Shown: positions 7,610 to 49,497 of the stretch, piece after piece
Numbering within the stretch: the first letter of the stretch is position 1
Layout of the letters: every line of letters begins with the position of its first letter
Assembly (NCBI GenBank): GCA_963855995.1
Contig: OY979717.1
Span: 5,129,428 to 5,193,427, forward strand
DNA: 64,000 bases
Reading direction: 5' to 3'
DNA from: Muricea muricata
Lineage: Eukaryota; Cnidaria; Anthozoa; Malacalcyonacea; Plexauridae
Made by a program: the position numbers and the translations under genes
Notes under the pieces: model-generated
What the model was told of the DNA's origin: nothing
The model's database searches: none
The model's input: only the letters and a program-made list of their open reading frames with translations

Positions 7610-7860
7610 GGTCTTGAATACGTCTGCCATGCATATTTTGTAAACCGGTTAGCAGTTTCTTTACGGTAGATTATGACAGATATAAAGTTTCACGGTGAAT
7701 CAGGGCAGTTTGTGCAAAAATAGGGCAATGGACCAGAGTATAATTTATATTCAATGTGCAGCAGTTCTTAAATTAAAAAACCCAGACGACTTATGTATTG
7801 AAATAAGTTGGCGCATAATTCGTCAAATTTGGGCACAAATTCATATTCAACGATAGCAAG

Positions 7861-11145: not shown

Positions 11146-12069
11146 AACGAAATTCGTATTAATGTTCAGTGTTGATTTGTTCCTCTCGCCAAAGGTTTAC
11201 ATGTCGTAAATCACTGATTTTGTTCTCAATGCATGTGCATGCACTCTGGTGAAGTACTAGCTTGAACTGTTGAACATGATATATCGAACATCGGTAGGTC
11301 GGTTGATTCAAAGGATAAAGCAAAATCGAGCATGCCTCATGTTATCCCGCATATAACTACTAATCATACTGGCCTGTAAAATGTCGGGCCCTTCTATTTT
11401 TTCTATAAAAAGCGCTTCTATTTTTTTATGTCACAGTAAATCTGCATCACTATTTGTAAACATTTATTAAAGAACAGGCAGATTGTACTATACATTTTGA
11501 AATCAATACATGTACTACAAATATCATTCAATACAAAAGTGTCATATTTAGCAAAATTATTACAACGTCATCACCGTTGGTTTTCACAGCGTATTTATGC
11601 ATCTAGGTTTGTACCATATGAATGTGAATAAAATAACTCTTGCTTCTTACCAATCTGAAAATAAAAAAACTTTAAATTAGGTGGGATATTCCAGTGGCAA
11701 AAATCAACACAACGATATACGGATTAGTGCAACCATTGACAGGCTGGAACAATGGTGCTTACAGAAATGCGCAGTGGGATATGTGTGGACACATAAAGTT
11801 CAATAAAAAATTGTCCTTTATACTGAGTATGTGTTTTCAAAGTATCTTAGTTTGTAAATTCAAAAAGTTTGTTTCATGCATTGCTCCTGTTAGTCAATTG
11901 TGTAATTAACAAATATATTTTATTTTTGCGTGCGTCTGTACTGTAATAGACCAGAGATGACGTCATGGCGTGCAAAGGACAAAAAGTACAACACGAGAGG
12001 AAGTCGAGTGCCTTGACGTTGTGCTTTTCGCACGCAATGCTCACGTTTTCTGTGAGCTATTACAGTCAG

Positions 12070-12160
12070 TGACGTGGTGGCTTGGAGGGGGGGGGATTGG
12101 CCCACCCAGCGATGGCTCTAAGAGGGGCGCCGAAATGCTAGCGGGGCGCTAAATTTACCA
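12070..12160 (+). repeat. G-run repeat, related to 29741-29845
   Basis: The order cagtgacgtggtggct, a run of ten G, then aagaggggcgcc and aaattta matches the complement of 29741-29845. Two inverted, dispersed copies of one short interspersed repeat; family unknown. Confidence 0.65.
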
Positions 12161-13042
12161 AGAAGGGCCTAATGAGTGTTTAATTTGAATTACTATTTCA
12201 AAACACGAGCATGAGCGCTTTATCAGATACAAAACGCAAGGCGCACTTTTTGAATAAAAGTTTTAAATCAATATATTTTGATTATTTCATATACAAATCA
12301 ATGTATTGTGCTTAATATTTTTTGACTATTAAAATTGTAGCGTTAACATCCAACACGCTAGAGCATTTCAGACTTTTGATATTTGATATGTTAGATTAGA
12401 ATGCTGGTGCTTCGTCAAGGTTGCGTAAGCTTCACGCTTGCATAAGCTACTTAAAGCTAGAGCTATAAATAGCACAACAAGTAATTTCCAATTGTGGACA
12501 TTACATAAAGATCTAAAATAGCTTTAGACAAAACCCTATATAAGGCCGACTAGGCGGACGCTCTACTATAAAAACTTGTGGTGAAAATATTGTATTCAAG
12601 ACCCAGCAAGAATGTTTTGTATTTACCAGTGAGACTATCGTCAGGCCCTTTTCAGAGCAAGGAGGCAAAGATTGCTGTACTGTTGCTTCAATGCTTAGCT
12701 TTATCTTCAGACAAATAAATCGGCTAGTATACTTATTCAAAGAAATATATTTTGTAAATCAGGGCAGAGTCTTTATACTCATTTCTTTTATTTTATCCTC
12801 ATGGATTATTAATGAATTTCACAAGACGACTTATAAAATATGAATGAAGTTAATTGTTTTGAAATTTATATTAGCTGGCTGCATTCGGCATCAGGATTTA
12901 AGAATCATGATATTAGAAATATGTATTTATGTATAAGCTTTTTAGAACTTTTTGGGCGCACTTCGCTTTTGAATATAATAGTGCGTGTGTTCAACAAAAC
13001 ACATATGTACTTGTTAAGCTTTGTGGAAACACCACGTAAATT

Positions 13043-13096
13043 TATTATTGCAGAGCTTTCGATCCGTAAGCTCGGATCTTCATCAGTGCTATAATA
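13043..13096 (-). ncRNA. hammerhead-like motif in PLE 3' tail (left arm)
   Basis: Identical in core to the right-arm copy at 27205-27258. CTGATGA, stem II gatccg/cggatc, GAAA, a minimal two-pair stem III (ag/ct) and a stem I of nine pairs out of ten (tattatagca with tgcaataata). One extra A lies between CTGATGA and stem II. Such minimal stem III hammerheads are known to act best as dimers; activity here is untested. Confidence 0.6.
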
Positions 13097-13204
13097 ATAT
13101 GACTATTTGAATTCATACGCCCTTTTTTACTCAGCTACGTCATATCTAACGTAGCGAAATGGTTCTAATTAACCCGCATGCGTGCGCAAAGAAGAAAGAG
13201 AAAT

Positions 13205-13360
13205 TTAATTTTGCACAGTAAAGAGAGCGCGCCACGTACTGTCTAGTGGCGCGCCCTCTTGATCTATCGTACTATGTTTTTCAACTTCAATTGACTCTCT
13301 CATCTTGCGGGAGAGCTTATGACTTTCAGTGGCTAATTTTTCTAGCTCGGCTTTCTCGAT
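13205..13360 (-). pseudogene. PLE endonuclease C-terminus, left arm (with deletion)
   Basis: Reads ...ELEKLATESHKLSRKMRES and ends with a GAPLDSTWRAL block before the stop at 13205, the terminal part of the PLE protein after the LINE insertion. Compared with the right arm (26821-27039) it lacks about 63 bp, including the conserved His/Asn-Asp-His segment of the nuclease; the deletion lies between two copies of ttagc. The tail continues to the hammerhead and the palindrome edge. Confidence 0.8.
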
Positions 13361-13433
13361 TTTTATTAAAAGCCCTTTAGGGCAACACAATATATACAAT
13401 TAAAAAAAGCTTATTTACAATAAACACACAAAT

Positions 13434-16400
13434 TTACTGCCGGTAACTCTCCCTAAGACTCCGTTCACACACCAAAGAGTTTGAAATTGTGTCCTCTACC
13501 ATATCAAAAAATTCTAAGTTCAATCTGTTCGATACGTATGTCTTAAAGTATTGCAAACACGGGGTCTTCATAGCAGTGTTAAACTGGTGAGAGTTCCTTT
13601 CCTTCCAGGTGACGAATTTTGCAGCTGAAATAATGTAACTCGTCAGGTCACTAGTTGTATTCAATCCAGTTTCACCCAATAAAATCACTCGTTCAGAAAG
13701 TGTCGTGATAGATGGATCAATTCTGTTGCAGACGACAAGCACAAAGCGCCATAGTGCTGCAACAAAAGAACAATTAACGAGCGCGTGCGGCAAATTTTCC
13801 CATCGCTTTTTACACCGCGAACATGTAGCAGGAATCCGGGGATTACGGCTGTTGAGCAAAGAATTAACATTGAGTACGAGATGTACGGTTCGCCAGTAAA
13901 AGTCACGTATGACTGGATCTTCTAAGCCCGAATGAATCCTGCTCCAAATATCACTCCAAATTAACCCTCGGAAGTGCTGATCCCACTTGATTTGACAGGC
14001 TGGTCGAACAGGAGTAATTCTGTTACTAATTGCCTTTGAATAATAAAATCGAGCTGGCTGTGCGTACGTCAGATCAACATCGAATTCCCTCAAGACACGA
14101 AGAACAATGCTGTAAAAAGTAGATGGAGTATCTGCATTAGGTTTGCTGTTATCGTTGACACCAATAGATCGACCAATGCAGTATCGCATCAAATATTTCC
14201 ACGGGGCCGATGTTTCTTCAAGAGATTTAAATACACGCGGAATCAACAGACACTTGCTCTGCACTTCGATGTCGATTACATTTAAGCCACCAGACGTGAT
14301 GGAAGAAATACAAACTTCTCGTCTTACGAGCTCGGGTTTAGTGGACCAAATGAATTTCCACATCGCCGTCTTTAGCCTATCTATGACGGCTCGCTCAGGT
14401 GGGTAGATCCGTACTAAATGCCAGATGGATGATGCAGCCAAAGATCGGAGGACAGTGCATTTACCATGCAGGGTCAGGAATCTCGACTGCCATTCCGACA
14501 AGACCTTACAAAACTTCGCTACTCCCGTATCCCATGTTTTGTGTGCGGCGCTCATATCACCAAAGTGAAAGCCAACAATTTTGATAGTGCTGTCTGACCA
14601 CATCAATCCTCCAGGAGAATCTGATCGCTGCCTCCACCGACCAAGCCAGAGACCTTTTGACTTTGTTCGATTCAGCTTTGCTCCACTTGCACGACCATAT
14701 TGTTCAAATATATCTAGCACCTTGAGAAGACCACAGTCATTGGTCACAAAACAGGTGTTGTCGTCGGCGTATTGACTGATCTTGCATTCATGACCGCCTG
14801 GGAGCTTGATGCCTCGTATTTCGCCGCAAGTCCGAATTGGTTGACCAAAGCATTCTGAAACGAGCACAAATAGTAGGGGAGACAAGCGACAGCCTTGTCT
14901 CACTCCTCGCGTAACATCAAAGAATTCCGATAAAGTACCGTTGCTGAGTATCGCACTTTGAACATGAGTGTACAGACATCGGATGATGCCCCGAATGATA
15001 GGACCAAAGTTCATACAAGCTAAAACCTTGTGCATAAATTTCCAGTCAACATAATCGAAAGCCTTTTCCTGATCAATTGCAATGAAGGCACATTGGAGAT
15101 TGTTCCAATGGACATAATCCGAAATGTCTCTTAATAGTGTCGCATTGTCGTCAAAGGATCTACCGGGACAGCACACGATTGGTCAGGATGAATAACAGAC
15201 GGCATGACCACACGAAGACGTTGAGCGATCACCTTAGCAATTAATTTATAATCGACATTCAACAACGATATGGGCCGCCAGTTCTTGAGGTTTTCAGGAT
15301 CGTCCTTTTTGAAGATCAGAGTAATGATTGCCCGTCGGAGTGAGAGAGGTAATTCACCTTTATCTAGACAATAGTTAGCCATTGCCACGAAGTCACTCGC
15401 TAGGATGTCCCAGAAACAAAAGTAAAACTCTTTGGGTAAGCCGTCAGAGCCCGGCGTGCGGTTTGCTGGCATTGCGTGGAGAGCAAGTAGACGCTCTTCT
15501 TCGGAAAGAAGTGTTTCTAAGGATAGTTTCTCTTCATCGGAAAGGCGGCGGTCAATAACTTTGAGAACTTCTTCCTGATCACGATCGTCTAGAAGCTGAG
15601 AAGTATATAGCCGTTTGTAGAAGCGTACTTGCTCTTGCATAATAGTTTCTGAATCCGTAACCCGTCCACAGTCGGTCTTAAGCGCACTGACCAATTTTTT
15701 GGAGCCATTGGATCTTTCTCGGCGAAAAAAGAAACGAGAAGGCTTCTCTCGATTGCGGATAATACGGACACGACTTCGGATTCTAACTCCCTCCAATCGT
15801 TTACAATCAAGATCACATAGTTCTGTACGAACTCGTTGTAATTGAGCTAACTCCTCGGGGGAAAAATTGCATTTCCCACTTAGACGGTGAAATTGATTCA
15901 TAAGGTGAGCTCGCTGTTCATTGGATTGTTTCTTAACAGATTGGCTATACTCAATAATAATATTTCGCATTTCAGATTTGCCTTCGTCCCACCACTCCCC
16001 AATATCCTGGAAAAGTGCTTTTGACTCAGACCAGTCCGCCCAAAAGGATTTGATTGCATCACGTAATTTCGCATGACCAAGTAGAGACGTATTGAGTTTC
16101 CAAACACCCCCTCCCCATGTAATGACATGATCCGTATCAATTATTTGATACGTAAGGGAAATCAAGTCATGATCCGATAAATGGCACGGGTGGATTCCAG
16201 AGACTGCCCGATCATCCGCCAATTCGGAAGATATATAAAATTTGTCTAGTCGAGACATTATGGAACGATCTGCGTTAGACCACGTACACGTTTTCAGTTT
16301 TGAGTGTTGTTTACGCCAAATGTCTACCAGGTGATATCCTGATAGTAAGCGCTTCATTTCCGGACTACCAATGCTTCCATGGGAAGGGTTGCCACCAAAC

Positions 16401-16903
16401 CGATCCATAGCTACGTCTAAGACAAAATTGAAGTCTCCACCCATAATGATTTTGCGACTGGTTAGCAAATATCTATCCAGATTGGACAAAAACTCCAAGC
16501 GATCAGCACCAACTGTAGGGACATAGACAGTAACGATACGCAAAGGTGTTCCATTAAACTTCAAATCACAAACACACACTCGGCCATCATAGTCAACATC
16601 AAACTTTATGGCTTCAAACTTCGCCGGGTCGCGAATCAAGATTCCAACACCACCACTGTAAATCGTACCCACGCTCCAAAAACCTTTACATCGCCTTTCG
16701 GCAGACCATTGCAAACACTCACGTTTGTTTAGAATTCTTGTGTCTTGTAGTAATGCAATGTCATACACATGTTTAGATAAGTAATCAAACATTAGGCGAC
16801 GCCGCTTTGGATCACGCATACCATTAACGTTGAGGGAAATTACCGATAAGGAGTTATCACCGACCGGGGCTTTCGAGGTTTCTTCAACTGAACTAAGGTC
16901 CAC
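13434..16903 (-). pseudogene. Tx1-clade LINE ORF2 (APE endonuclease-reverse transcriptase), left arm
   Basis: The N-terminal part (16903-15131, 590 codons) is an AP-endonuclease-like nuclease: SVISLNVNGMRD, a GGDFN motif followed by a MDR, and SDHDLI. It continues into the RT with RPISLLNVDYKLIAK. The rest (15176-13434, 580 codons) has IDQEKAFD, RGVRQGC, the catalytic YADD and SGAKLNRTKSKGLWLG, then a zf-RVT-like CSRCKKRW block near the end. The pattern is typical of the Tx1 group of the L1 superfamily. One missing base near 15166, relative to the right arm, splits the frame; otherwise the ORF is open. It overlaps ORF1 by 64 bp in another frame. Its product would nick target DNA and reverse-transcribe the element RNA. 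Confidence 0.9.
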
Positions 16904-18171
16904 TCTGCCTTCTCACGATTCCGCTTTAGTGGATCGGAATCTAGATCCATATCTCCTTTTTCCGTCATCAAGGCACCTTGGGAAGAATTAACCACACTGG
17001 TATCTAACAGCTCAGGTGAACTTTGAGTATCTGGAGGAGGCTGGGACGTAGGAGAAACTCGGGACGTAGAGGGATCATGTGGCGGGGGATGGTCTTGAGA
17101 CTCGGGAGTATCTTGAGAAATTGACTGTGGCTGTTCATTGTGTGACTCAGGCTGCGACCGTATTTCCTGTGAAGATTCGCCATTCCGATCGGTGTCCATT
17201 ACCGCAGCTGTCTCACGAGGTACTTCCTGAGGAGGGCGCAACTCAGGGCAGTTTGCCCGAACATGGCCAAACTTGCCACAGCGAAAACACTTAAAACATT
17301 GATCACGCGTGTGACCAGCAATGCCACATTTAAAACCTACCACGTCATTTGGACACTCATTCGCACGATGACCTAATTGACGGCATCGAAAACATTGAGG
17401 AAGCTGCTCTTTATGACGAATTTCCACTGGAAATTCGGCTATACGCGATTTCCGTGGTATATCGGATTTAATATCTATCATCTTTGCAATCCGAGTCCCA
17501 GTTTCGATCGTTGGGAAACCTTGTTCGGTCAGCATTTCACGCTCTATAGTTTCGGCTGTGCCATATTGAGCAAGAGATCCAGCAACCACTTTATTAGGCA
17601 CTTCACTTGGAACATACAGTATTCTGACATCTAAAATCGGACTTTCGATTGGTTGTACGCCAATTTCTACGTCTTTGATTGTAAAAGCTGCGATAAAAAA
17701 TTCATCTTAGCCTCGTTGGTACGAAATGTGACACGGTAGCGATCATGTGGCATGGATTGCAGAGCCTTGACTACCTTTACATAAACAACACGAATAACGG
17801 CTTTGATAACTTCCTTAACCGACACAGTGTCTAACGCCTTAGTATGTAAGACAACCGTATTGGGACGACGAGTCCTCGGCTCATTTGATCGAACACGATG
17901 ACTTCGTTGTTCTCCCACGCCGGAATCACGGGCAGCTGCGGCAAAATCCATCTCTGAAACCACACCAGGGGCACCAACACCAGGAACACCAACACCAGGA
18001 ACACCAACACCAGGAGCACTAACACCAGGAACACCAACACCAGGAGCTCCAACACCAGGAGCACCAGCACCAGGAACACCAACACCAGGAGCACCAACAC
18101 CAACTCGCTCGTCTGTCTGCTCCACTTCTTCTTGGGTATCCACCACGATAAGATTAAAGATTTGCTTCTAT
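16840..18171 (-). pseudogene. Tx1-clade LINE ORF1 (gag-like, three zinc knuckles), left arm
   Basis: An ORF1-type nucleic-acid-binding protein. From its start near 18146 it has a Gly-Val-Gly-Val-Pro type pentapeptide array, then a charged domain, then zinc knuckles CFRCRQLGHRANEC, a second one, and CFRCGKFGHVRANC, and a Pro/Ser/Gln-rich tail. In the second knuckle the first Cys is Gly (GFKCGIAGHTRDQC); the right arm keeps it. One missing base near 17690 breaks the frame between 18146-17667 and 17601-16840. No ATG is seen at the array start, so the 5' end may be truncated or lie in the junction. Confidence 0.85.
17964..18108 (-). repeat. 15 bp coding minisatellite in LINE ORF1, left arm (~9 units)
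   Basis: Tandem 15-mers encode pentapeptides of the [10 protein letters not shown] and GAGAP types. The right-arm array (22022-22233) is clearly longer, so the array changed length after the inverted duplication. Confidence 0.9.
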
Positions 18172-18330
18172 TGCTTTTCTTCGTTTGTTCTTTCTCGCAG
18201 TTAGTCTTATGTTCTTTAAGACGTAATGAGAGATTTCGGCCAGTTTCACCAATATATACCAAACCACATTCACATGGAATGCGGTACACACCGGGTTTCT
18301 GAAATTCATTAACGCTATCCTTATGTGTGC
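18172..18330 (-). pseudogene. PLE GIY-YIG endonuclease, N-terminal part, left arm
   Basis: Reads VYRIPCECGLVYIGETGRNL, the diagnostic GIY-YIG start of Penelope-like endonucleases with its zinc-finger-like Cys pair, then RLKEHKTNCEKEQTKKS where the LINE insertion begins. Continuation is at 13360 and below. Homology to the right arm resumes at tctctctgcacacataagga, just outside the foreign patch. Confidence 0.85.
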
Positions 18331-19045
18331 AGAGAGGTCTGAAAGGGTTTCAGGGCAACCTTGATACCACAATTATTAAGAACTCTCCTGAGTAGTTCCG
18401 CAATTCCTTGAATGTACGGGACTATTGCAAAACCTTTCACAGCGGAAACACCCTCTGGAGAGTTGCAATGAGTCAAGGCTGGACGCCTTAAACAATCGTA
18501 AAGAAAGCTCTTAGGATATTAATTGTTTTCTTTCAGAATATTGGTTACATATTGACCCTCGTTTTCCCTAGCATCGTTGTTCGATGTTAAATTCTCCGCT
18601 CTCTGAAACAAAGTTGTAACAACAGACTTATGGCTTCTCGGGTGATGCGAGTTAAATGACAGATATTTATCAGTATGAGTTGGTTTACGATAAACAACAG
18701 TTTCCAACTTCCCATCAGTAGTTCTCTGAACATAAGTATCCAAAAAGGGCAACTTCCCATCAGTCTCACGTTCTACGGTGAACTGTATAGAAGGCTCAAT
18801 TGAATTCAAATGTTGCAAAAAAACAACAATCTCATCTTAAGAAACCGCAGAGATCACATCATCAACAAATCGCTTCCAGAACGATAGGCTGACCGGAGCC
18901 GTTGTTAGGGCTTTATGTTCAATATCTTCCATTACTAAATTAGCAATGACAGCCGAAACCCGCGAGCCCATCGCTGTTCCAAAAACCTGTTTGTAATAAG
19001 TGCCCTCAAACACAAACTGAGTTTGTTGTGGAATGGTCCATTGGA
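18331..19045 (-). pseudogene. foreign PLE segment (family B) replacing part of the left-arm RT
   Basis: Frames 19049-18837 and 18818-18519 encode RT palm sequence of another PLE family: GTAMGSRVSAVIANLVMEDI, the catalytic RFVDD, then LPFLDTYVQRT and VYRKPTHTDKYLSFNSHHPR. The right arm has instead GAPMGSPLSPVMANLFIEEF and RYVDD. The switch occurs after tttgttcacaaatgttccaa, shared by both arms, and returns to family A near 18330. About 35 codons expected between the finger and palm motifs are missing at the first junction. Stops and frame breaks make it non-functional. Confidence 0.8.
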
Positions 19046-19969
19046 ACATTTGTGAACAAACAAACTACATCAAAACTTACCAGAATTTCCTCTTCATCTA
19101 ATTTAGTTTGTTCAATTTTTGTAATAAATTCTTTAGAATTTACTACGTGATGTTCAGAATTTCCAACAATGGGTTTTAATATCTCAGCAAGGTATTTAGC
19201 TAAATTATAAGTTGGAGAACTTTGGGAAGCAACAATGGGTCTTAGGGGGACATCAGGTTTATGAATTTTAGGTAAACCATAAAATTTAGGACAGACAGTA
19301 GCAGACGGTTTCAAATGATCATAAACTTTTTGAGACAATTTATCTGACTTTTTAAGATCAGATAATTTTGAACATATTTTACGTTCAATTTTAGCTGTAG
19401 GGTCACTTTTAAGCTCTTTGTAGGTTTTCGTGTTTAAGACAACTGTAGCGTTACTCTTATCAGCTTTTAAAATATGTATGGACTTATCTGCTCTTAAATT
19501 GCTCACAGCATCCTTCATATTCTTGGTTAAATTCGACCTTGGAAGCTTCGCACGTCGTAGAACCTCGGTGATCTGGACGCGGATGTTACTAGCTACATCG
19601 TTTTTGAGATGGAAAAGTTTCGGCCCCAGACGTTGAACAATTTCTTCTTTAGGTAGGACGCGCGGTACAACAGCGAAATTTAAGCCAAGAGCCAGGATAT
19701 CTTCTTCAACCGGCATAAGACTTCTTGCACTTCTGTTAATGACGGTGCGTCTTAGTGGATGACTAGCCAAGTCTTCTTGTTTGCGACGATTCTTCTGAGC
19801 ATAGGACGTCAATTTCGTGAATTTGGTCATCTGAGTAGAACGTGCTTTGTTGAATGTACTCCTAGATGAGACAGAGATCATTCTTTTAGCTGTACAATAG
19901 TGCTCTTAATTTAAAATCATCCACAGTTCTTCAGTCAAGATGGCAATCCTTTCTTCTACCCCGCATAAC
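19046..19969 (-). pseudogene. PLE reverse transcriptase, N-terminal region (family A), left arm
   Basis: The frame from 19881 carries LKADKSNATVVL, CPKFYGLPKIHKPDVPLRPI and VSFDVVCLFTNVP, typical of the fingers and palm A region of Penelope-type RTs. Upstream to 19969 the arm remains homologous to the right copy but a stop (taa where the right arm has gaa) precedes it. The arm ends at the palindrome spacer, so the true 5' end is missing here. Confidence 0.85.
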
Positions 19970-20019
19970 TCGGCCGAGTTGGCATTAGTGCGAGAACGTA
20001 TTGCTTGGACTCGTAGACA
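19970..20019. other. central spacer of the giant palindrome
   Basis: Fifty bases, starting tcggccgagttggcatt, without a mirrored partner. Gcataac on the left and gttatgc on the right are the innermost paired bases. In the right-arm direction the spacer stays open and encodes a helical PLE N-terminal stretch (SAELALVRERIAWTRRQLC), so it belongs to the right copy. Confidence 0.85.
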
Positions 20020-21952
20020 GTTATGCAGGGTAGACGAAAGGATTGCCATCTTGACTGAAGAACTGTGGATGACTTTAAATGAAGAGCACTATTCTACAGT
20101 TAAAAGAATGATCTCTGCCTCATCTAGGAGTACATTCAACAAAGCACGTTCTACTCAGATGGCCATATTCACGAAATTGACGTCCTATGGTCAGAAGAAT
20201 CGTCGCAAACAAGAAGAAGACTTGGCTAGTCATCCACTAAGACAGTGGTCGAGTCATCCACTAAGACAGTGGTCATTAACAGAAGTGCAAGAAATCTTAC
20301 GCCAGTTGAAGAATATGTCTTGGCTCTTGGCTTAAATTTCGCGGTTGTACCGCGCGTCCTACCTAAAGAAAAAATTGTTCAACGTCTGGGGCCGAAACTT
20401 TTCCATCTCAAAAACGATGTTGCTAGTAACATCCGCGTCCAGATCACCGAGGTTCTACGACGTGCGAAGCTTCCAAAGTCGAATTTAGCCAAGAATATGA
20501 AGGATGCTGTGAGCAATTTAAGAGCAGATAAGTCCATACATATTTTAAAAGCTGATAAGAGTAACGCTGCAGTTGTCTTAGATCGTGTAGAATATGATAA
20601 CAAAGTCTTGGCTTTTTTAAACACGCAAACCTACAAAGAGCTTAAAAGTGACCCTACAGCTAAAATTGAACGTAAAATATGTTCGAAATTATCTGATCTT
20701 AAAAAGTCAGATAAATTGCCACAAAAAGTTTATAATCATTTGAGACCGTTTGCTACTGTCTGTCCTAAATTTTATAGTTTACCTAAAATTCATAAGCCTG
20801 ATGTCTCCCTATAAGATAGACCCATTGTTGCTTCCTAAGGTTCTCCAACATATAATTTAGCTAAATATCTTGCTGAAATATTAAGACTCCTTGTTGGAAA
20901 TTCTGAACATCACGTAGTAAATTCTAAAGAATTTATTACAAAAATTGAACAAACTAAATTAGATGAAGATGAAATTCTGGTAAGTTTTGATATAGTTAGT
21001 TTGTTCACAAATGTTCCAATTGATGAAGCCTGTAATATCGCAACAGAACGATTACTTTTAGATAGTACACTTCATCTAAGAACTACCCTTTCTCCTGAGA
21101 ATATATATGATCTGCTGAAACTATGTTTAACTACGACATGTTTTCAGTGGAGGGAGAAATTCTATGAACAGACACATGGTGCCCCAATGGGAAGTCCATT
21201 GTCACCAGTTATGGCCAATTTGTTCATTGAAGAATTTGAAAAAAAAGCTTTAGCCACCTCAACGTTAAAACCAGGATTCTGGTTTAGATACGTTGATGAC
21301 GCATTAAGCAGCGGGGCACATGGTCTAGAAAATCTCCATCGATTTCTAGAACACATTTATTTTATAGTTTACATCCTTCTATCAAGTTCACATTAGAAAT
21401 GCAGAAGGAAGATAAAACTATACCTTTCTTAGATGTACTGTTAATTCAGGAAGACGGGTCATTAGGACATAAGGTGTATAGAAAACCAACATACACGGAC
21501 AGGTATCTGCACTATAATTCATTTCACCATCCTAGCATAAAGAACTCAGTGTGTAAGACACTTATTAAGCGAGCGAAAACAATTTGAGAAGTGTTTTAAA
21601 AATGAATGGTTATCCTAAGAAATTCATAGATAATGCTATGAAAACACGACAACACGTACGGGAAAAGACCGAATATCCGTCCTTTCTCAGTCTACCGTAT
21701 ATTGGTTCAGCTTCACATAAAATCGAAAGGATTTTGAAAGAAGCTGGCATTCAGTTATACCATTCTAGTGAAAACAAATTGTTTCGATCTCTCTGCACAC
21801 ATAAGGATAGCGTTAATGAATTTCAGAAACCCGGTGTGTACCGCATTCCATGTGAATGTGGTTTGGTATATATTGGTGAAACTGGCCGAAATCTCTCATT
21901 ACGTCTTAAAGAACATAAGACTAACTGCGAGAAAGAACAAACGAAGAAAAGC
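20020..21952 (+). pseudogene. PLE reverse transcriptase plus GIY-YIG start (family A), right arm
   Basis: Broken frames in order: N-terminal helical region (open from 19940), RT fingers (20245-20814, with LKADKSNAAVVLDRVEYDNK and CPKFYSLPKIHKPDVSL), palm (21001-21396: VPIDEACNIATERLL, GAPMGSPLSPVMANLF and catalytic RYVDD), thumb (21399-21587: IPFLDVLL, VYRKPTYTDRYLHYNS) and endonuclease start (from 21584: GVYRIPCECGLVYIGETGR). Stops at about 20812 and 20836, a 24 bp tandem duplication near 20225-20272 with a frame break, and further shifts inactivate it. The LINE insertion begins after acgaagaaaagc. Confidence 0.88.
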
Positions 21953-23349
21953 AATAAAAGCAAATCTTTAATCTTATCGTGGTGGATACCCAAGAATAAG
22001 TGGAGCAGACAGACGAGCGAGTTGGTGTTGGTGCTCTTGGTGTTGGTGTTGGTGTTGGTGTTGGTGTTCCTGGTGCTGGTGCTCCTGGTGTTGGAGCTCC
22101 TGGTGTTGGTGTTCCTGGTGCTGGTGCTCCTGGTGTTGGAGCTCCTGGTGTTGGTGTTCCTGATGTTAGTGTTCCTGGTGTTGGTGTTCCTGGTGTTGGT
22201 GTTCCTGGTGTTGGTGCCCCTGGTGTGGTTTCAGAGATGGATTTTGCCGCAGCTGCCCGTGATTCCGGCGTGGGAGAACAACGAAGTCATCGTATTCGAT
22301 CAAATGAGCCGAGGACTCGTCGTCCCAATACGGTTGTCTTACATACTAAGGCGTTAGACACTGTGTCGGTTAAGGAAGTTATCGAAGCCGTTATTCGTGT
22401 TGTTGATGTAAAGGTAGTCAAGGCTGTGCAATCCATGCCACATGATCGCTACCGTGTCACATTTCGTACCAACGAGGCTAAGATGAATTTTTTATCGCAG
22501 CCTTTTACAATCAAAGACGTAGAAATTGGCGTACAACCAATCGAAAGTCCGATTTTAGATGTCAGAATACTGTATGTTCCAAGTGAAGTGCCTAATGAAG
22601 TGGTTGCTGGATCTCTTGCTCAATATGGCACAGTCGAAACTATAGAGCGTGAAATGCTGACCGAACAAGGTTTCCCAACGATCGAAACTGGGACTCGGAT
22701 TGCAAAGATGATAGATATTAATTCCGATATGCCACGGAAATCGCGTATAGCCGAATTTCCAGTGGAAATTCGTCATAAAGGGTAGCTTCCTCAATGTTTT
22801 CGATGCCGTCAATTAGGTCATCGTGCGAATGAGTGTTCAAATGACGTGGTATGTTTTAAATGTGGCATTGCTGGTCACACGCGTGATCAATGTTTTAAGT
22901 GTTTTCGCTGTGGCAAGTTTGGCCATGTTCGGGCAAACTGCTCTGACTTGCGCCCTCCTCAGGAAGTACCTCGTGAGACAGCTGTGGTAATGGATACTGA
23001 TCGGAATGGCGAATCTTCACAGGAAATACGGTCGCAGCCTGAGTCACACAATGAACAGCCACAGTCAATTTCTCAAGATACTCCCAAGTCTCAAGACCAT
23101 CCCCCGCCACATGATCCCTCTACGTCCCGAGTTCCTCCTACGTCCCAGCCTCCTCCAGATACTCAAAGTTCACCTGAGCTGTTAGATACCAGTGTGGCTA
23201 GTTCTTCCCAAGGTGCCTTGATGACGGAAAAAGGAGATATGGATCTAGATTCCGATCCATTAAAGCGGAATCGTGAGAAGGCAGAGTGGACCTTAGTTCA
23301 GTCGAAGAAACCTCGAAAGCCCCGGTCGGTGATAACTCCTTATCGGTAA
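21953..23349 (+). pseudogene. Tx1-clade LINE ORF1 (gag-like), right arm
   Basis: The same protein as at 16840-18171: pentapeptide array, basic middle domain, then three CCHC knuckles (CFRCRQLGHRANEC, CFKCGIAGHTRDQC, CFRCGKFGHVRANC). Here all knuckle cysteines are intact. A stop (tag) at 22783-22785, where the left arm has a Gln codon, separates the middle domain from the knuckles, and another stop (taa, near 21995) lies just upstream of the array. The frame through the 17690-equivalent site is intact. It overlaps ORF2 by 64 bp. Confidence 0.87.
22022..22233 (+). repeat. 15 bp coding minisatellite in LINE ORF1, right arm (~13 units)
   Basis: Longer than the left-arm array; includes a GTGTTG run that gives a GVGVGVGV stretch. 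In an alternative frame it reads as Leu/Val-rich, which is only a shadow. Confidence 0.9.
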
Positions 23350-26300
23350 TTTCCCTCAACGTTAATGGTATGCGTGATCCAAAGCGGCGGCGTCTAATGT
23401 TTGATTACTTATCTAAACATGTGTATGACATTGCATTACTACAAGACACAAGAATTCTAAATAAGCGTGAGTGTTTGCAATGGTCTGCCGAAAGCCGATG
23501 TAAAGGTTTTTGGAGCGTGGGTACGATTTACAGTGGTGGTGTTGGAATCTTGATTCGCGACCCGGCGAAGTTTGAAGCCATAAAGTTTGATGTTGACTAT
23601 GATGGCCGAGTGTGTGTTTGTGATTTGAAGTTTAATGGAACACCTTTGCGTATCGTTAATGTCTATGTCCCTACAGTTGGTGCTGATCGCTTGGAGTTTT
23701 TGTCCAATCTGGATAGATATTTGCTAACCAGTCGCAAAATCATTATGGGTGGAGACTTCAATTTTGTCTTAGACGTAGCTATGGATCGGTTTGGTGGCAA
23801 CCCTTCCCATGGAAGCATTGGTAGTCCGGAAATGAAGCGCTTACTATCAAGATATCACCTGGTAGACATTTGGCGTAAACAACACTCAAAACTGAAAACG
23901 TGTACGTGGTCTAACGCAGATCGTTCCATAATGTCTCGACTAGACAAATTTTATATATCTTCCGAATTGGCGGATGATCGGGCAGTCTCTGGAATCCACC
24001 CGTGCCATTTATCGGATCATGACTTGATTTCTCTTACTTTATTTGATACGGATCATGTCATTACATGGGGAGGGGGTGTTTGGAAACTCAATACGTCTCT
24101 ACTTGGTCATGCGAAATTACGTGATGCAATCAAATCCTTTTGGGCGGACTGGTCTGAGTCAAAAGCACTTTTCCTGGATATTGGGGAGTGGTGGGACGAA
24201 GGCAAATCTGAAATGCGAAATATTATTATTGAGTATAGCCAATCTGTTAAGAAACAATCCAATGAACAGCGAGCTCGCCTTATGAATCAATTTCACCGTC
24301 TAAGTGGGAAATGCAATTTTTCCCCCGAGGAGTTAGCTCAATTACAACGAGTTCGTACAGAACTATGTGATCTTGATTGTAAACGATTGGAGGGAGTTAG
24401 AATCCGAAGTCGTGTCCGTATTATCCGCAATCGAGAGAAGCCTTCTCGTTTCTTTTTTCGCCGAGAAAGATCCAATGGCTCCAAAAAATTGGTCAGTGCG
24501 CTTAGGACCGACTGTGGACGGGTTACGGATTCAGCATCTATTATGCAAGAGCAAGTACGCTTCTACAAACGGCTATATACTTCTCAGCTTCTAGACGATC
24601 GTGATCAGGAAGAAGTTCTCAAAGTTATTGACCGCCGCCTTTCCGAAGAAAAGAAACTATCCTTAGAAACACTTCTTTCCGAAGAAGAGTGTGCTTGCTC
24701 TCCACGCAATGCCAGCAAACCGCACGCCGGGTTCTGACGGCTTACCCAAAGAGTTTTACGTTTGTTTCTGGGACATCCTAGCGAGTGACTTCGTGGCAAT
24801 GGCTAACTATTGTCTAGATAAAGGTGAATTACCTCTCTCACTCCGACGGGCAATCATTACTCTGATCTTCAAAAAGGATGACCCTGAAAACCTTAAGAAC
24901 TGGCGGCCCATCTCGTTGTTGAATGTCGATTATAAATTAATTGCTAAGGTGATCGCTTAACGTCTTCGTGTGGTCATGCCGTCTGTTATTCATCCTGACC
25001 AATCGTGTGCTGTCCCTGGTAGATCCTCTGAAGACAATGCGACACTATTAAGAGACATTTCGGATTATGTCCATTCGAACAATCTCCAATGTGCCTTCAT
25101 TGCAATTGATCAGGAAAAGGCTTTCGATTATGTTGACTGGAAATTTATGCACAAGGTTTTAGCTTGTATGAACTTTGGTCCTATCATTCGGGGCATCATC
25201 CGATGTCTGTACACTCATGTTCAAAGTGCGATACTCAGCAACGGTACTTTATCGGAATTCTTTGATGTTACGCGAGGAGTGAGACAAGGCTGTCCCTTGT
25301 CTCCCCTACTATTTGTGCTCGTTTCAGAATGCTTTGGTCAACTAATTCGGACTTGCAGCGAAATACGAGGTGTCAAGCTCCCAGGCGGTCGTGAATGCAA
25401 GATCAGTCAATACGCCGACGACAACACCTGCTTTGTGACCAACGACTGTGGTCTTCTCAAGGTGCTAGATGTATTTGAAAAATATGGTCGTGCAAGTGGA
25501 GCGAAGCTGAATCGAACAAAGTCAAAAGGTCTCTGGCTTGGTCGGTGGAGGCAGCGATCAGATTCTCCTGGAGGATTGATGTGGTCAGACAGCACTATCA
25601 AAATTGTTGGCTTTCACTTTGGTGATATGAGCGCCGCACACAAAACATGGGATACGGGAGTAGCGAAGTTTTGCAAGGTCTTGTCGGAATGGCAGTCGAG
25701 ATTCCTGACCCTGCATGGTAAATGCACTGTCCTCCGATCTTTGGCTGCATCATCCATCTGGCATTTAGTACGGATCTACCCACCTGAGCGAGCCGTCATA
25801 GATAGGCTAAAGACGGCGATGTGGAAATTCATTTGGTCCAATAAACCCGAGCTCGTAAGACGAGAAGTTTGTATTTCTTCCATCACGTCTGGTGGCTTAA
25901 ATGTAATCGACATCGAAGTGCAGAGCAAGTGTCTGTTGATTCCGCGTGTATTCAAATTTCTTGAAGAAGCATCGGCCCCGTGGAAAGATTTGATGCGATA
26001 CTACATTGGTCGATCTATTGGTGTCAACGATAATAGCAAACCTAATGCAGATACTCCATCTACTTTTTACAGCATTGTTCTTCGTGTCTTGAGGGAATTC
26101 GATGTTGATCAGACGTACGCACAGCCAGCTCGATTTTATTATTCAAAGGCAATTAGTAACAGAATTACTCCTGTTCGACCAGCCTGTCAAATCAAGTGGG
26201 ATCAGCACTTCCGAGGGTTAATTTGGAGTGATATTTGGAGCCGGATTCATTCGGGTTTGGAAGATCCAGTCCTACGTGACTTTTACTGGCGAAACGTACA

Positions 26301-26748
26301 TCTCGTACTCAATGTTAATTCTTTGCTCAACAGCCGTAATCCCCGGATTCCTGCTACATGTTCGCGGTGTAAAAAGCGATGGGAAAATTTGTCGCATGCG
26401 CTCATTAATTGTTCCTTCGTTGCAGCACTATGGCGTTTTGTGCTTGACGTCTGTAACAGAATTGATCCGTCTATCACGACACTTTCCGAACGAGTGATTT
26501 TATTGGGTGAAACTGGATTGAATACAACTAGTGACCTGACGAGGTATATTATTTCAGCTGCAAAATTCGCCGCCTGGAAGGAAAGGAACTCTCACCAGTT
26601 TAACACTGCTATGAAGACTCCGTGTTTGCAGTATTTTAAGACATACGTATCGAACAGATTGAACTTAGAATTTTTTGATATGGTAGAGGACACAATTTCA
26701 AACTCTTTGGTGTGTGAATGGAGTCTTAGGGAGAGTTACCGGCAGTAA
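23286..26748 (+). pseudogene. Tx1-clade LINE ORF2 (APE endonuclease-reverse transcriptase), right arm
   Basis: The same domain order as the left copy. Endonuclease 23286 to about 24030 (SVISLNVNGMRD, GGDFNFVLD, SDHDLI), a linker, then RT (RPISLLNVDYKLIAK, RGVRQGCPLSPLLF, YADDNTCF near 25412) and a CSRCKKRW zinc-binding block near 26360. Lesions: a 2 bp loss near 24690 relative to the left arm, and a nonsense taa at 24958-24960 where the left copy has Gln. From 24970 to the stop at 26748 the frame is open. The left copy is intact at both sites, so the two copies decayed independently. Confidence 0.9.
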
Positions 26749-26820
26749 ATTTGTGTGTTTATTGTAAATATGTATTTTTAATTGTACATATTGTGTTGCC
26801 CTAAAGGGCTTTTAATAAAA

Positions 26821-27039
26821 ATCGAGAAAGCCGAGCTAGAAAAATTAGCATTGGCTAAACACTCTTGGAGTAATGACCATCGCATAAAATGGAACGAAAT
26901 GTTTATTTTAGCGACTGAAAGTCATAAGTTCTTCCGCAAAATGAGAGAGTCAATTGAAGTTGAAAAACATAGTACGATAGATCAAGAGGGCGCGCCACTA
27001 GACAGTACGTGGCGCGCTCTCTTTACTGTGCAAAATTAA
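26821..27039 (+). pseudogene. PLE endonuclease C-terminus, right arm (complete version)
   Basis: After the LINE 3' end (cttttaataaaa) the PLE frame resumes: AELEKLALAKHSWSNDHRIK, WNEMFILATESHKFFRKM, RESIEVEKH and GAPLDSTWRAL, then stop at 27039. The block AKHSWSNDHRI is the conserved His/Asn motif of the PLE GIY-YIG domain, lost from the left arm. This shows that the LINE lies inside the PLE endonuclease, not beside it. Confidence 0.88.
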
Positions 27040-27204
27040 ATTTCTCTTTCTTCTTTGCGCACGCATGTAAGTTAATTAGAACCATTTCGCTACGTTAGAT
27101 ATGACGTAGCTGATTTGACCGTTTAATTAACTTTTAAATCACGCGAGCATTCAATCACGACACTTTATGTGTAAAAAGGGGCGTATGAATTCAAATAGTC
27201 ATAT

Positions 27205-27258
27205 TATTATAGCACTGATGAAGATCCGAGCTTACGGATCGAAAGCTCTGCAATAATA
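27205..27258 (+). ncRNA. hammerhead-like motif in PLE 3' tail (right arm)
   Basis: CTGATGA (27215-27221), stem II gatccg/cggatc around agctta, GAAA (27241-27244), a minimal stem III (ag/ct) with C27248 as the predicted cleavage residue, and stem I pairing 27205-27214 with 27249-27258, one mismatch. An extra A between the first core box and stem II is atypical. Position, ~250 bp after the PLE stop, matches known PLE hammerheads. Confidence 0.6.
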
Positions 27259-27306
27259 AATTTACATGGTGTTTCCACAAAGCTTAACAAGTATATTGCA
27301 TTCACA

Positions 27307-28542
27307 ATGGAGTCTTCTACCAAAAGCACAAAACGTAAAAAGTCAGCCGCAGAGAATAGAAAGGCGAGCAAGGCAAGGAGAGAAGAAAACGAGAAACTTG
27401 GAACGTTCATGAAAAGCTATTTTACAAAATCAAGCAAATCATATAAAGACGATGCTTCCAGCAATGATCGAGAGTCTCTAAATGCTGCAGAAAACAAAAA
27501 CAAGGAAAATAAAGATGTAAAATATGGTATAGAAAACACAAGCCCAGACATTCCATGTGATGTGGACGACGAAAACAACGCAGAAAATGAGGTCGAAGTG
27601 GCTCAAGATTTTGTAAATTTTCCATAGTTTGATAGTGGGCGAAAGTCATATAAGTGCCAAGATTGCTCAAGTTGTCTTTTTACAAGGACGATCAATCAAT
27701 TCATGCTTGGAGCAACAAGAAAGAAACGAAATTTTGCGTCGGAAGAGAGAAGTCCTGGCAAACCGCACCATTATGAAACGCGTTGTCAACACTGTTGTAC
27801 ATTTAGGAAACTTTAGGAAACAGGGACTTGCTTTTTGAGAGCATCGAGAGTCGCTAATCGATGATCCTGAAGCAAATAAAGGGAATTTTCTACAGTCATT
27901 AAATTACTTGTTAGGCTACGATGCTACAACTGCCAACCATCTTGAAAAAGTCAGAAATCAACAAGCTACGAAAAAAGAAGAAAAGGTGGTAAAAAAGGTG
28001 CTAAAAGACGCTGTTCGAAACTAACTTTTCTCAGCAATGATACGCAGAAAAATTTGATCAATATTATTGGTAAAGAAATCGCCTCCCAAATTGTTAAAGA
28101 AATCGGCAGTTGCAGAGCATAGGCATTAACAGCCGACACCACACCGGATGTCAGTCAGCACGAGCAGCTTAGTATTTGCGCAAGGATCGTTAATCGTAAT
28201 GGCAAATGTTTCGAGCACCTTTTGTCTTGCAAAAGAGCTTATGGGACCAAACCAATGGGACGATACAATTTAATCTCAGAAACATTTATTTTGAGAGGTG
28301 TGTCGTTCGATAAACTCGTAGCGCAAACGTGACGGCGCTTCGAATATGAGTGGCTGCTACAACGGCTTGCAGGCGATCATCAAGGAGAAAGTTGGAGAGC
28401 ATGTTCCTTTTGTCCATTGTTATGCACATACACTTAATCTTGTTTTAAAACTGTGGCAATCGATATTCCGGGCGGAAAACGAAGTTTTGTTAAAAATATT
28501 ATAGCCCAGACAACTACTTTAAAAAGAGCCATAAAGAAATGA
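27307..28542 (+). pseudogene. hAT-superfamily transposase, decayed (ZMYM1/DUF4371-like)
   Basis: Starts MESSTKSTKRKKSAAENRKA with a Lys/Ser-rich N-terminus (27307-27627). After frame shifts it continues with a GRSINSCLEQQERNEILRR region, an FRKQGLAF block, YDATTANHLEKVRNQQATKK, then a TADTTPDVSQHEQLSICARI-like segment, the hAT catalytic Asp region, and a recognisable DGASNMSG block near 28333 followed by HCYAHTLNLVLK. Several shifts and stops make it inactive. It begins 11 bp outside the palindrome edge and is cut at 28542 by a PLE; the hAT C-terminal dimerisation domain is missing. Confidence 0.75.
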
Positions 28543-29376
28543 AATTTTAAACAAGAATTTATTGAAGCTTACGTTTCGTTGCTACTCGCAACATCTTCAG
28601 AGCATTATGAAGATATCTAATATGTACAAAGGTTGTTATAATTATACAGTGTTACAAACTGTTATAAAATTCAAATCTAAACAGGCGAATAGAAAAATAG
28701 CATAAAAAACATGAACATTACACAGGATTATACTACTTTACACATATACAGACATCACAGACAGATAACAACAGAGAGTTAATACAAGGTCAAAGGTACA
28801 GATCGAAGATTGGCATTAAGTGATGATGGTTGAAATTTAGAGATAAGTAGACTCTCTCGTAATAAGAGTTCAAATTAAGGTAGAAGAACAGGAAGTCAGG
28901 ATAGAAAAATCATCAGGATCAATAGGATGGCCAGAAGATTGATGATGAGATAGAATGTTAGAGAAGGAAGGTTTTGAGAGAGGTTTGCCAGTACAAGCCG
29001 AAATTCCCATATGTTCCGAAATGCGCGTATGAAGGTGGCGAATAGTTTCACCGAAATACAATCCATCACAGAATTGACACTTAAATTTGTAAACAATACG
29101 CGATCTCAATCCAAGAGGAATGCGATCTTTAAATCGAAAAAAAATGACAATCTTTGTACCGGTCGAAAAATACACCGTAGTTGAATATGCGGATAGGCAG
29201 GCGAAAATAGTTTAATGATTTGTTTCCGAATTTGAATAGAGTGCAGTTCAGTATATGGTAGTGAAAAAATAACCAATCTTTTAGGAGCAATTAGTTCAGT
29301 GGGCGCTTTTTCGAAAATTTTATTTAAAAACGAATGTACGACTTTATCAAAAAACTTCTCAGGATAACCATTTTAT
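28543..29376 (-). pseudogene. Penelope-like element, 5'-truncated (family C)
   Basis: Reading down from 29376: NGYPEKFFDKVVHSFLNKIF, FSLPYTELHSIQIRKQIIKL, a FRPVQR block, then LRSRIVYKFKCQFCDGLYFG and HLHTRISEHMGISACTGKPL, ending SGHPIDPDDFSILTSC (29175-28870). This is the RT C-terminus and GIY-YIG start of another PLE family. One frame shift lies near 29160 and a stop after the DDFSIL block. The 3' tail ends with a degenerate hammerhead in the hAT pseudogene. The 5' truncation is common for these retroelements. Confidence 0.8.
28567..28603 (-). ncRNA. degenerate hammerhead motif in PLE 3' tail
   Basis: CTGAAGA (one change from CTGATGA) at 28600-28594, stem II gttgc/gcaac, GAAA at 28577-28574, then cgta and a three-pair stem I (gct/agc). 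The core substitution hits an essential position, so cleavage is unlikely. Confidence 0.5.
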
Positions 29377-29740
29377 TTCGGTGAAACTATTCGCCACCTT
29401 CACTGACACTGGTTGTGTCATTTTCAAATAAAATAAAATTGAATATCTCGAAAAGTAAGGCGGTTACAAAAATTCTATCAAAACTGTTATACAATGATTT
29501 TAACTGATCTTTCTAAGGCAATAAGAAAATTGTCGGAGAAAATTTTGTTTCATAGGCACTTTAAACTGTTAGCTAACTGTTTCACCCCCATGTACTTAGA
29601 ATGCTCAAAATGCCGTTTCAGAGAGTTATATTTGAAGAATTGTGTGGCGAACGTATCTTTCTGAGTCGTCTTTGCCTACGACACTCACTATTTTTTCACA
29701 CTACGACACTCCCGCTATTTTTTTCCTTTTTTGGCGAGGA
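29377..29740. other. nothing recognised
   Basis: Non-coding sequence between the truncated PLE and the G-run repeat. No element ends seen. Confidence 0.4.
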
Positions 29741-29845
29741 GGGAAACGGGGGGGGGGGGGTGCAAGCATCAAGATTACTCTTAGGGGCGCCAAATTTAAT
29801 ACTGCCCCCCCTTGAAAATTTCGAGCCACCACGCCACTGATTAAA
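29741..29845 (-). repeat. G-run repeat, inverted copy of 12070-12160
   Basis: A run of ten G, then cttaggggcgcc and a run of C, ending agccaccacgccactga, the complement of the opening word at 12070. Same family, opposite orientation. Confidence 0.65.
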
Positions 29846-29967: not shown

Positions 29968-31094
29968 TTATTTACCTTTCCATTCGTGCAAATCTATTCC
30001 AGATATTTCCTTACACATTACCCGAGGACGTCTTTTTGAATCAGCTAGAAAAGCGTTTTTCTGCACGGAAACGATGCTCTTCAAATTATCACACATTATC
30101 TTCGAAAGCGATGCCTTTCTGATTTGTTCCAACTGGGAGGGTTTGAATACTCCGGGATTCTCGTAGAAAAATCTGTCTCCATCTCTTAATCTTCTCATTT
30201 GCTCCCGAATAATACAGCCAAATGTTCGTCCTACGAGCGTAGGGAAAGCTGGAGTTTCTGCTAAACCAGCCACCCACAGATCTGCAATATTCGGATCACT
30301 ATCATACAGCTTAGATAATATTTTTCTGTTAAGAAAACTCGGGATTTCATCTCTTGTATCATAGAATGATCTTGCATCTTTTAAACCACAAAACCGCCTG
30401 TACGCATTATACCCAGGCAAACCGTGATCTCTTCCACGTTGGATATTCAGAGCAGCCAGGTTGAGGCCAGGCGAATTCTCACGTTCGAACAAATTATTCA
30501 ATATTCCATCAGCAAGTTTACGGTCGACCCTTTGTGACTTGTTTCCAAGTAATCCTAGCATCAATTCATCAATGCCGCGCTCCCTTATAAACGTGTTGTT
30601 AAAGAATAACTGGCGTAAAGGCAAAGGGTTGCCTGTGGGATTAAAACCTTTATCCAGTATATCAAAAGTTGGTCTTATCAAACTGTGTCCAAATCTAAAT
30701 GCAGCTGTTGCAAAAGAATTAAGGATGCCTGGGTTGATCGTTGGATCATATCCTTCGTATTCTAGAAGAGCATGGCCAATAATTATAGGGAGAAAGTCTT
30801 CATACGTGATTTTTTGTAGGACAGCACCAATTATTTTTCTTGTTTCCTGGTAGATTTTTTCTCCGTCCCAGTGCTGATTTATTTTTCCTAAAGTTGTAGC
30901 AATTCTGTTGTGTTCCCGTAAAAATAAGGTATGCATGGACGCAAGTACCATCTGCTCATTAGATCTTGCATCACCAGCCAGAAAACAACCACCGAAATTG
31001 TCACAGAAATTGTTCGGAGCCACGTGTGAGTTGTTATCTCTGGGTAATAAATCTCCATTCTTGCTTTGACAGGTCTTTAACAAGCCTTTTTTAC
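29968..31094 (-). CDS. animal haem peroxidase gene A, terminal coding exon
   Basis: Encodes the catalytic C-terminal two-thirds of a peroxidasin/myeloperoxidase-family enzyme, a secreted or endomembrane haem oxidoreductase using H2O2. Acceptor tttttag precedes 31094, and phase (gt + aaa) joins exon 37062-37285 in frame. Visible motifs: MVLASMHTLFLREHNRIA with the distal Arg and the haem-linking Glu, WDGEKIYQETRKIIGAVLQK, the proximal His in AAFRFGHSLIRPTFD, LNIQRGRDHGLPGYNAYR, and a C-terminal CIIREQMRRLRDGDRFFYEN. Stop at 29968. No Ig, LRR or VWC domains are seen, so it is a stand-alone peroxidase rather than full peroxidasin. About 460 bp are nearly identical to gene B while flanks differ, suggesting conversion. 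Confidence 0.9.
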
Positions 31095-49223: not shown

Positions 49224-49497
49224 ATATTATACCGAAACACTAAAATGTTCACGCAAATTAGAATTTAAAAATGATACACGCGTACTAAACCTTGCCAAGC
49301 TTTTATCGAGATTTTCCACGCTTTCTTCGGCTATTTCAAACTCTGCGAAGGTTGGGAAGGCTCGAATGGCAAATTTGGTGGATTTTTTTTATTTTGGGCG
49401 TCTTTTTCGTCCAAAATTCTTTGAATCTCTTCATCTGATTCTCTGATTTCTTCTGCACATCCTAGTTAGGGAGGCAGAGGGTCAAAAATGTATGCAC

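Follow-up and report, generated by a model that had tools for sequence, protein, structure and literature searches.

The 64,000-nucleotide stretch of the Muricea muricata genome analysed here (C2:5129428-5193427, on contig OY979717.1; hereafter the window) contains a long inverted repeat whose two arms are copies of a Penelope-like element (PLE), joined head to head, each with a long interspersed nuclear element (LINE) at the same place in its GIY-YIG endonuclease gene. Searches of the genome (453 Mb, 74 contigs) revealed that this structure is a single insertion into a hAT-type transposon, made at one site with the loss of a short piece of target sequence. We consider it likely that one PLE integration into the hAT element produced the whole pair, in which both target ends would have primed synthesis from a LINE-bearing template, arm A would have been made with a template switch and the LINE would be a site-specific parasite of PLEs.

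Self-BLAST of the window matched 13332-18344 to 26849-21782 in inverted orientation (96.5% identity over 5078 columns) and 19037-21023 to itself, also inverted (87.5%), with outer inverted pieces reaching 13005 and 27296; together with an alignment of the arms it places their meeting point near 19971. Both arms have the same order, from the 5' part of the PLE reverse transcriptase (RT) through the first half of the GIY-YIG sequence, a ∼4.8-kb LINE and the second half of the endonuclease to the PLE 3' end (Table 1). A previous reading of this DNA from its letters alone (the sequence-only reading) had described two head-to-head arms with this nesting, and both comparisons bear it out. The arm alignment also contains the differences listed in that reading: arm A is without 57 bp and 63 bp found in arm B, the minisatellite differs by 63 bp, and 18351-19033 of arm A is a 'replaced' segment that is not homologous to arm B. 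Divergence between the arms is uneven (50 of 925 positions, 5.4%, in the inner PLE part versus 102 of 4820, 2.1%, in the LINE; Fisher p = 2.4e-7), and the LINE frames are broken in different ways in the two arms. Because the arms are 2-5% apart and include a 0.7-kb non-homologous stretch, the persistence of so long a palindrome, once called notable, needs no special explanation.

The pair splits a transposon (12067-29839) that we take to be of the hAT type from its ends, its 8-bp repeat and its protein motifs. The inverted ends, CAGTGACGTGGTGGC and GCCACCACGCCACTG, pair at 14 of 15 bases, and the flanking 8-bp repeat (ATTACAGT / ATTAAAGT) matches at seven of eight; the 62-amino-acid N-terminus gave no Pfam hit. 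A search with the joined flanks found hAT relatives in which both flanks lie ∼65-74 bp apart. In the three of these unoccupied relatives that were read (L049-L051; L numbers denote loci) the sequence is continuous, and 44-45 bp of it are missing in the window between 13007 and 27306. Since the flanks belong to one hAT copy that is continuous in three unoccupied relatives, there was one insertion at one site. The same relatives shift the extent of 13009-27295 given previously: the last hAT base on the left is 13007 and the first on the right is 27306, and the insertion occupies 13008-27305.

At the centre, the sequence of the PLE copies L013 and L015 is ...AAAGCCGA(G/T)TTGGCATTAG.... Compared with the upstream PLE sequence of these copies, the first base of arm B is 19973 and that of arm A 19970, the truncations lying ∼44 bp apart. 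There is no spacer of 50 bp at 19970-20019, as had been proposed; this is arm B's own 5' sequence. It was the joining of the arms that created the 14-bp palindrome AACTCGGCCGAGTT at 19967-19980. We had also considered a true palindrome stabilised by a central deletion, with AACTCGGCCGAGTT as its native centre, and the comparison with L013 and L015 ruled this out.

Table 1. Components of the PLE pair, its LINEs and the host transposon (window coordinates)
Feature	Position	Strand	Details
hAT-type transposon	12067-29839	+	split in two: 12067-13007 to the left of the insertion, 27306-29839 to its right
Whole PLE insertion	13008-27305		pair of head-to-head PLE copies with their 3' ends outermost; replaces 44-45 bp of hAT sequence
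Arm A, PLE copy	13008-19970	-	5'-truncated at PLE reference ∼51; no 3' tail; LINE-bearing; chimeric
Endonuclease coding 3' half and PLE 3' end, arm A	13008-13358	-	deletions of 63 bp and 57 bp
LINE, arm A	13359-18189	-	4831 bp; CGAGAAAG copies at 13351-13358 and 18190-18197
GIY-YIG endonuclease coding, 5' half, arm A	18190-18344	-	
PLE family Y segment	18351-19027	-	within the RT region of arm A; 91-96% identity to other listed genome copies
Inner PLE part, arm A	19037-19970	-	distance to arm B no smaller than that to other PLE copies
Filler bases	19971-19972		two bases at the head-to-head join
Arm B, PLE copy	19973-27305	+	5' truncation ∼44 bp further upstream than in A; ∼9 nt of the 32-nt 3' tail; LINE-bearing
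GIY-YIG endonuclease coding, 5' half, arm B	21783-21935	+	
LINE, arm B	21936-26822	+	4887 bp; CGAGAAAG copies at 21928-21935 and 26823-26830
Endonuclease coding 3' half and PLE 3' end, arm B	26823-27296	+	

The architecture of the window pair, with PLE 3' termini outward, unequal 5' truncations, a near-blunt join and, elsewhere, a target duplication round the whole pair, recurs in the genome. PLE queries gave 68, 46 and 48 matches, with 40 candidates scored from each of 124, 1180 and 120, and all counts are lower bounds. Many of the matches are minus-then-plus neighbours. Among 20 loci fetched solely for holding the LINE, in stretches extending at most a few kb beyond the arms, 12 have head-to-head PLE arms and in eight the fetched stretch contains a single arm; none of the 20 has PLEs tail to tail or in tandem on one strand. 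The arms are within 80 bp of each other at 11 of the 12 loci and 1.4 kb apart at L011, and the single arm at L025 is the distant partner in the L027 pair. A further 20 loci fetched as PLE copies, many of which were chosen because they looked paired, are all head to head. The 32 other loci read that share this form have varied truncations, which can be very unequal between two arms (208/1465 in L010, 1134/1706 in L012 and 1359/1684 in L033, in PLE-reference coordinates). When both 3' ends could be read, 12 of 18 rows had the full 32-nt tail at exactly one outer end and an exact 8-14 bp repeat round the pair, the edge bases of which are possibly the element's own; merging loci of shared origin (L014/L019/L020 and L026/L037) leaves nine independent one-tail cases. 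Neither end has the tail in five of the 18 rows, four of them of one short derivative. In the window the tail is partial at B and absent at A.

Several PLE groups were observed in the course of these searches. L014, L019 and L020 (C1, 17.36, 18.05 and 18.75 Mb) have an identical PLE junction, flanking repeat and flanks, with LINEs 0.07-0.36% apart, and are likely segmental duplications of one LINE-bearing insertion. L026 and L037 share junction, flanks and repeat. They belong to the short PLE derivative (L026, L035-L039), which is ∼680 bp long and whose copies share one fixed inverted junction (PLE3:365 with PLE5:1870) as well as their outer flank. With 1180 first-look candidates for the query made from the PLE 3' end, 40 of which were scored, the derivative is possibly a high-copy non-autonomous form. 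PLE family Y was scored at ∼40 places with 91-96% identity to the window segment, and it too occurs in minus-then-plus neighbours (C2:21510383-21511748, C6:3096957-3098531 and C8:4609042-4610139). The PLE pair at L029 (C1:58811500-58815200), each arm of which carries the LINE, is probably very recent, its arms being identical over 696 PLE and 903 LINE bases.

Relatives without the LINE identify the element as an endonuclease-bearing PLE, with the RT and a C-terminal GIY-YIG domain in one frame. L046 has a single 419-codon frame that contains RVT_1 and runs on through the endonuclease region, with no Pfam GIY-YIG hit of its own; in L041, RVT_1 and GIY-YIG (24.7 bits, cut-off 22.6) occur in two frames, and window positions 17831-18289 match GIY-YIG at 24.5 bits. 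An optional 3' tail and short target duplications round inverted copies are present in the relatives; in their place, the window pair shows part of a tail and a loss of target sequence. Rfam gave no match at the gathering threshold in the whole window, either to the hammerhead ribozyme of the PLE pseudo-long terminal repeat or to any other family; by eye only, a CTGATGA-stem-GAAA stretch near the PLE 3' end (13057-13086 on the minus strand and 27215-27244 on the plus strand) is like a degenerate hammerhead core. No relatives in viral contigs were confirmed.

How could such a pair be made? In the integration that we favour, the PLE protein would cut both target strands and each exposed 3' end would prime reverse transcription of PLE RNA. 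With one start per arm, from two RNA start sites, the tail would be left on one side only, and both first strands would stop short and then be joined end to end. A template already carrying the LINE in its endonuclease gene would place the LINE in both arms, and it is because both PLE copies carry it that the arms are 7 kb long. Arm A would have become a chimera because the enzyme changed template twice while making it, going over to an RNA from a second PLE family and next to a different copy of the original family. The LINE, by inserting at CGAGAAAG in the GIY-YIG coding sequence, would interrupt the endonuclease of that copy, and the LINE-bearing PLE would then be carried, presumably in trans, by intact PLEs. 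For the anole protein PAc, presented as the first active full-length protein of a PLE to be studied in vitro, cleavage and extension of both strands were observed, starting at two adjacent positions in the RNA that match the tail (PMC11167929). Some observations speak against this scheme. The window pair has the 44-45-bp target deletion and no target duplication, and the start site of PAc in vitro was the same for top and bottom strands (PMC11167929); because no strand difference in start site was seen, the in vitro work leaves the one-sided tail unexplained.

A single template would suffice if one PLE cDNA, or an antisense RNA, folded at its end and copied itself, which we regard as unlikely. 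Self-priming of this kind gives the head-to-head order seen, and it was inferred from palindromes in an excerpted passage of PMC3846280; the window has its 14-bp palindrome at the join, but that palindrome was made by joining. Arm A contains RT sequence from a different PLE family, 0.68 kb of family Y lying between its endonuclease and its inner part, and this chimeric make-up argues against a simple fold-back. The inner part of arm A, which should then be the first copy of arm B, is not one: A and B share six private bases over 354 columns in the PLE 3' part and none over 347 columns in the inner RT part, where the A-B distance is 0.0525 and distances to other close copies are 0.036-0.069 (five of 52 PLE rows, with less than 85% identity, were dropped from these comparisons). 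Template switching during arm A synthesis fits the chimera; later gene conversion of the inner half of A may be its source instead, and fold-back would then escape this objection. Opposite tail states at the two ends of a pair, as in the 12 rows above, would be unexpected if one arm copied the other, and the arms of L010 and L044 have several closer relatives elsewhere than their partners. On the PLE 3'-end tree, partners are united with support of 100/98 (A+B), 98/96 (the C9 pair) and 95/93 (L033). Further results tell against the favoured scheme: A and B share no private bases in the left half of the endonuclease (0/155), partners are often close relatives, being mutual nearest by distance in four of nine scored pairs for the RT part and three of eight for the 3' end, and the identity of the L029 arms (0/696 differences in the PLE part) is what self-priming on one cDNA would give as well.

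The LINE belongs to the L1 group, with a CCHC-bearing first open reading frame (ORF1) and, by Pfam, an ORF2 with APE endonuclease, RT and zf-RVT. The APE-type endonuclease, RT and zf-RVT domains were detected in arm A and in the relative L014, whose open frames of 437 and 1160 codons are counted from GTG starts, and the best PDB match is LINE-1 ORF2p (E 2.7e-27). In both window arms the LINE lies at the same nucleotide between 8-bp copies of CGAGAAAG. A search with its 3' end gave 190 first-look candidates, of which 40 were scored, 38 of them at places other than the window. The LINE end continues into the same PLE nucleotide at 35 of these 38, a recurrence that the sequence-only reading missed; two end straight after the 8-bp repeat (L023, read as LINE then LINE, and C1:111.30 Mb), and one, on C12, ends 16 nt past it. 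With few exceptions, the junctions in the loci read are CGAGAAAG followed by AACAAACG and ...AAAAAT followed by CGAGAAAG. The LINE is thus site-specific, with independent insertions at the same nucleotide and a target duplication; they are found in at least three PLE lineages (that of the window, the short derivative at L026 and the main subfamily) and in the LINE-on-LINE tandem at L023. LINE clusters were also noted near C2:48.46-48.49 Mb, beyond L011.

As copies with a shared site could all descend from a single insertion that then moved with the PLE, we compared LINE and PLE divergences. Arm B differs from 21 other LINE-bearing copies by a mean of 0.0189 in the LINE and 0.0618 in the PLE 3' end, and the five single comparisons tested gave p values of 9e-7 to 5e-9. 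The corresponding distances are 0.0266 and 0.0491 for arm A and 0.0167 and 0.0380 for L026, which lies in the short derivative marked CATAGGAC, the five other read copies of which have no LINE. L026 and L014 are 0.0056 apart in the LINE versus 0.0341 in the PLE (p = 3e-7), and L026-L028 gave p = 0.0025; in control pairs, within the main subfamily or one locus, there was no difference between LINE and PLE (p 0.35-0.55). Because its LINE divergence to other loci is well below its PLE divergence, the window PLE lineage received the LINE separately, and the distances indicate that no fewer than three PLE lineages acquired it, each at this one base. Two results run counter to repeated entry. In the main PLE subfamily the LINE and PLE means are equal (0.0173 and 0.0164, 186 non-partner pairs), so many of its copies may stem from one composite, and LINE-PLE composites are probably also copied as units there. 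Furthermore, LINE presence on the PLE tree (without L040, which has no LINE/empty label) needs nine changes, of which starred branches force only two, and 41 of 500 shuffles were as low.

Can the LINE be placed in time relative to the two window arms? A and B share 10 private LINE substitutions, scattered along the element, and the LINE was therefore most likely present already in the template that was copied. Only six of 325 copy pairs share three or more private substitutions (L025-L027 23, L012 12, the window 10, L011 9, L014-L020 4 and L013-L015 3). In the first four of these, the two copies lie at one locus as partners or neighbours of opposite orientation, five of the six are partners, neighbours or segmental copies, and unrelated pairs share 0-3. 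In addition, the arms of L012 share one internal LINE deletion, the 903-base LINE parts at L029 are identical, and the A-B divergence of the LINE (0.0214) agrees with that of the PLE 3' end (0.0282, p = 0.35). The sequence-only reading had the LINE predate an inverted duplication; its order of events probably stands, as the LINE seems to have been in place before the arms, while the duplication itself does not.

That the PLE pair came first, and the site-specific LINE then entered each arm independently, was the explanation we first favoured from the distances, and we now think it improbable. The A-B LINE distance of 0.0214 is above the median of 320 LINE pairs (0.018; copies with fewer than 1400 aligned bases left out), B's nearest LINE is at another locus, and the private changes in the LINE are unequal (59 in A, 28 in B). 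The shared private substitutions set this explanation back, although arm-to-arm conversion could mimic them. The pairs L010 and L018 have the LINE in one arm only, which means that LINEs also enter once a pair has formed, or that templates are sometimes mixed. Other observations count against a LINE-bearing template: the union of A and B on the LINE tree is weak (16.5/58; 59/16 with LINE copies of fewer than 2400 aligned bases left out), nine sites group A with a younger LINE clade, and at L022, with the LINE in both arms, no private bases are shared over 853 columns and 11 of 853 differ. The LINE was thus not shared through the template at every pair, and L022 still fits independent entry. 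We did not use the LINE tree on its own as evidence, as it is star-like, with weak A+B support and conflicting sites; codon-position bias, tried as a test of selection before insertion, was also set aside (17/17/31 differences by position in the LINE endonuclease and RT, a weak signal).

The sequence-only reading explained the pair by an inverted segmental duplication of a locus that contained the PLE and its LINE, which is very unlikely. Such an event would account for the same nesting in both arms and for the shared private LINE substitutions, but both arms end at the PLE 3' end inside one hAT copy, their truncations are unequal, as elsewhere, their divergence is uneven, the same form recurs with repeats round the pair, and the unoccupied hAT relatives contradict it. 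Arms that were initially identical, a common truncation and edges unrelated to element ends, the marks of a duplication of the locus, are all absent, and the structure is one PLE insertion. Inverted repeats are a known class of assembly artefact, but a fold-back read or collapsed inverted copies are hardly credible here, as the arms differ by 2-5% and by an unrelated 0.7-kb segment, the flanks are two different parts of one hAT element and the same form occurs with varied truncations at 32 other loci read; the claim that this is a real locus is supported by its sequence.

Elsewhere in the window, two long open frames on the minus strand (29968-31083 and 59420-60559) have 86% DNA identity to each other, and the first encodes an animal haem peroxidase domain. 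Frames like the pol of a long-terminal-repeat retrotransposon occupy 43319-48116 on the minus strand, with RT, RNase H and an integrase zinc domain and a weak match to an aspartyl protease. Self-BLAST found further inverted repeats at 6637-7613 (396 bp, 99.5%), 49463-52216 (564 bp, 88%) and 60912-62484 (550 bp, 93%).

The origin of inverted PLE copies is an open question, for which self-priming is one proposal according to the excerpted text of PMC3846280. This genome offers about thirty read PLE pairs in which joins, tails and flanking repeats can be seen, and the chimeric pair of the window is of help in distinguishing synthesis on two templates from copying by fold-back. With the LINE comes an example of one retrotransposon class parasitising another, at a set position in the latter's endonuclease gene. 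On balance, we lean towards a more general picture, in which a LINE lineage specialised on one GIY-YIG nucleotide of PLEs would disarm its host, re-target its own 8-bp duplication into tandems and spread partly inside the PLE, and in which PLE insertions throughout the genome would record two-ended target-primed reverse transcription with RNA of more than one PLE family.

In twin priming of L1, two primed cDNAs are joined within one insertion and only the 5' part of one element is inverted. The window pair would be similar in the joining of two primed cDNAs, and differs in having a PLE 3' terminus at each end. In rotifer Penelope families, as excerpted from PMC3846280, head-to-head is the most frequent inverted form and self-priming was proposed, a 31-bp tail is optional at one inverted end, and the cases quoted have 8-10 bp target duplications; head-to-head PLEs, tails and PLE insertions into other elements were thus already known. 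The part of PMC12910113 examined contains nothing on inverted Penelope copies. The element described here resembles Penelope/Poseidon-type PLEs in its RT with a C-terminal GIY-YIG, its head-to-head form and its optional tail at one inverted end. Unlike in rotifer Penelope and PAc, the LINE extends the arms here to 7 kb, two PLE families are combined in arm A, tail states are opposite in 12 of 18 rows and the window pair has a target deletion. For target-specific LINEs, the portions of PMC4640811 and PMC3747384 consulted include transposons among the targets and state that the Tx1 and R1 clades use APE endonucleases. We found no report of a LINE targeting the GIY-YIG gene of a PLE in the open-access papers searched, Repbase reports and subscription papers being outside the search. 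The LINE is like the target-specific L1/Tx1-type LINEs, as far as these portions describe them, in its CCHC ORF1, APE endonuclease, RT, zf-RVT, fixed multicopy target and short duplication, and differs from them in that its target is the GIY-YIG coding sequence of a PLE.

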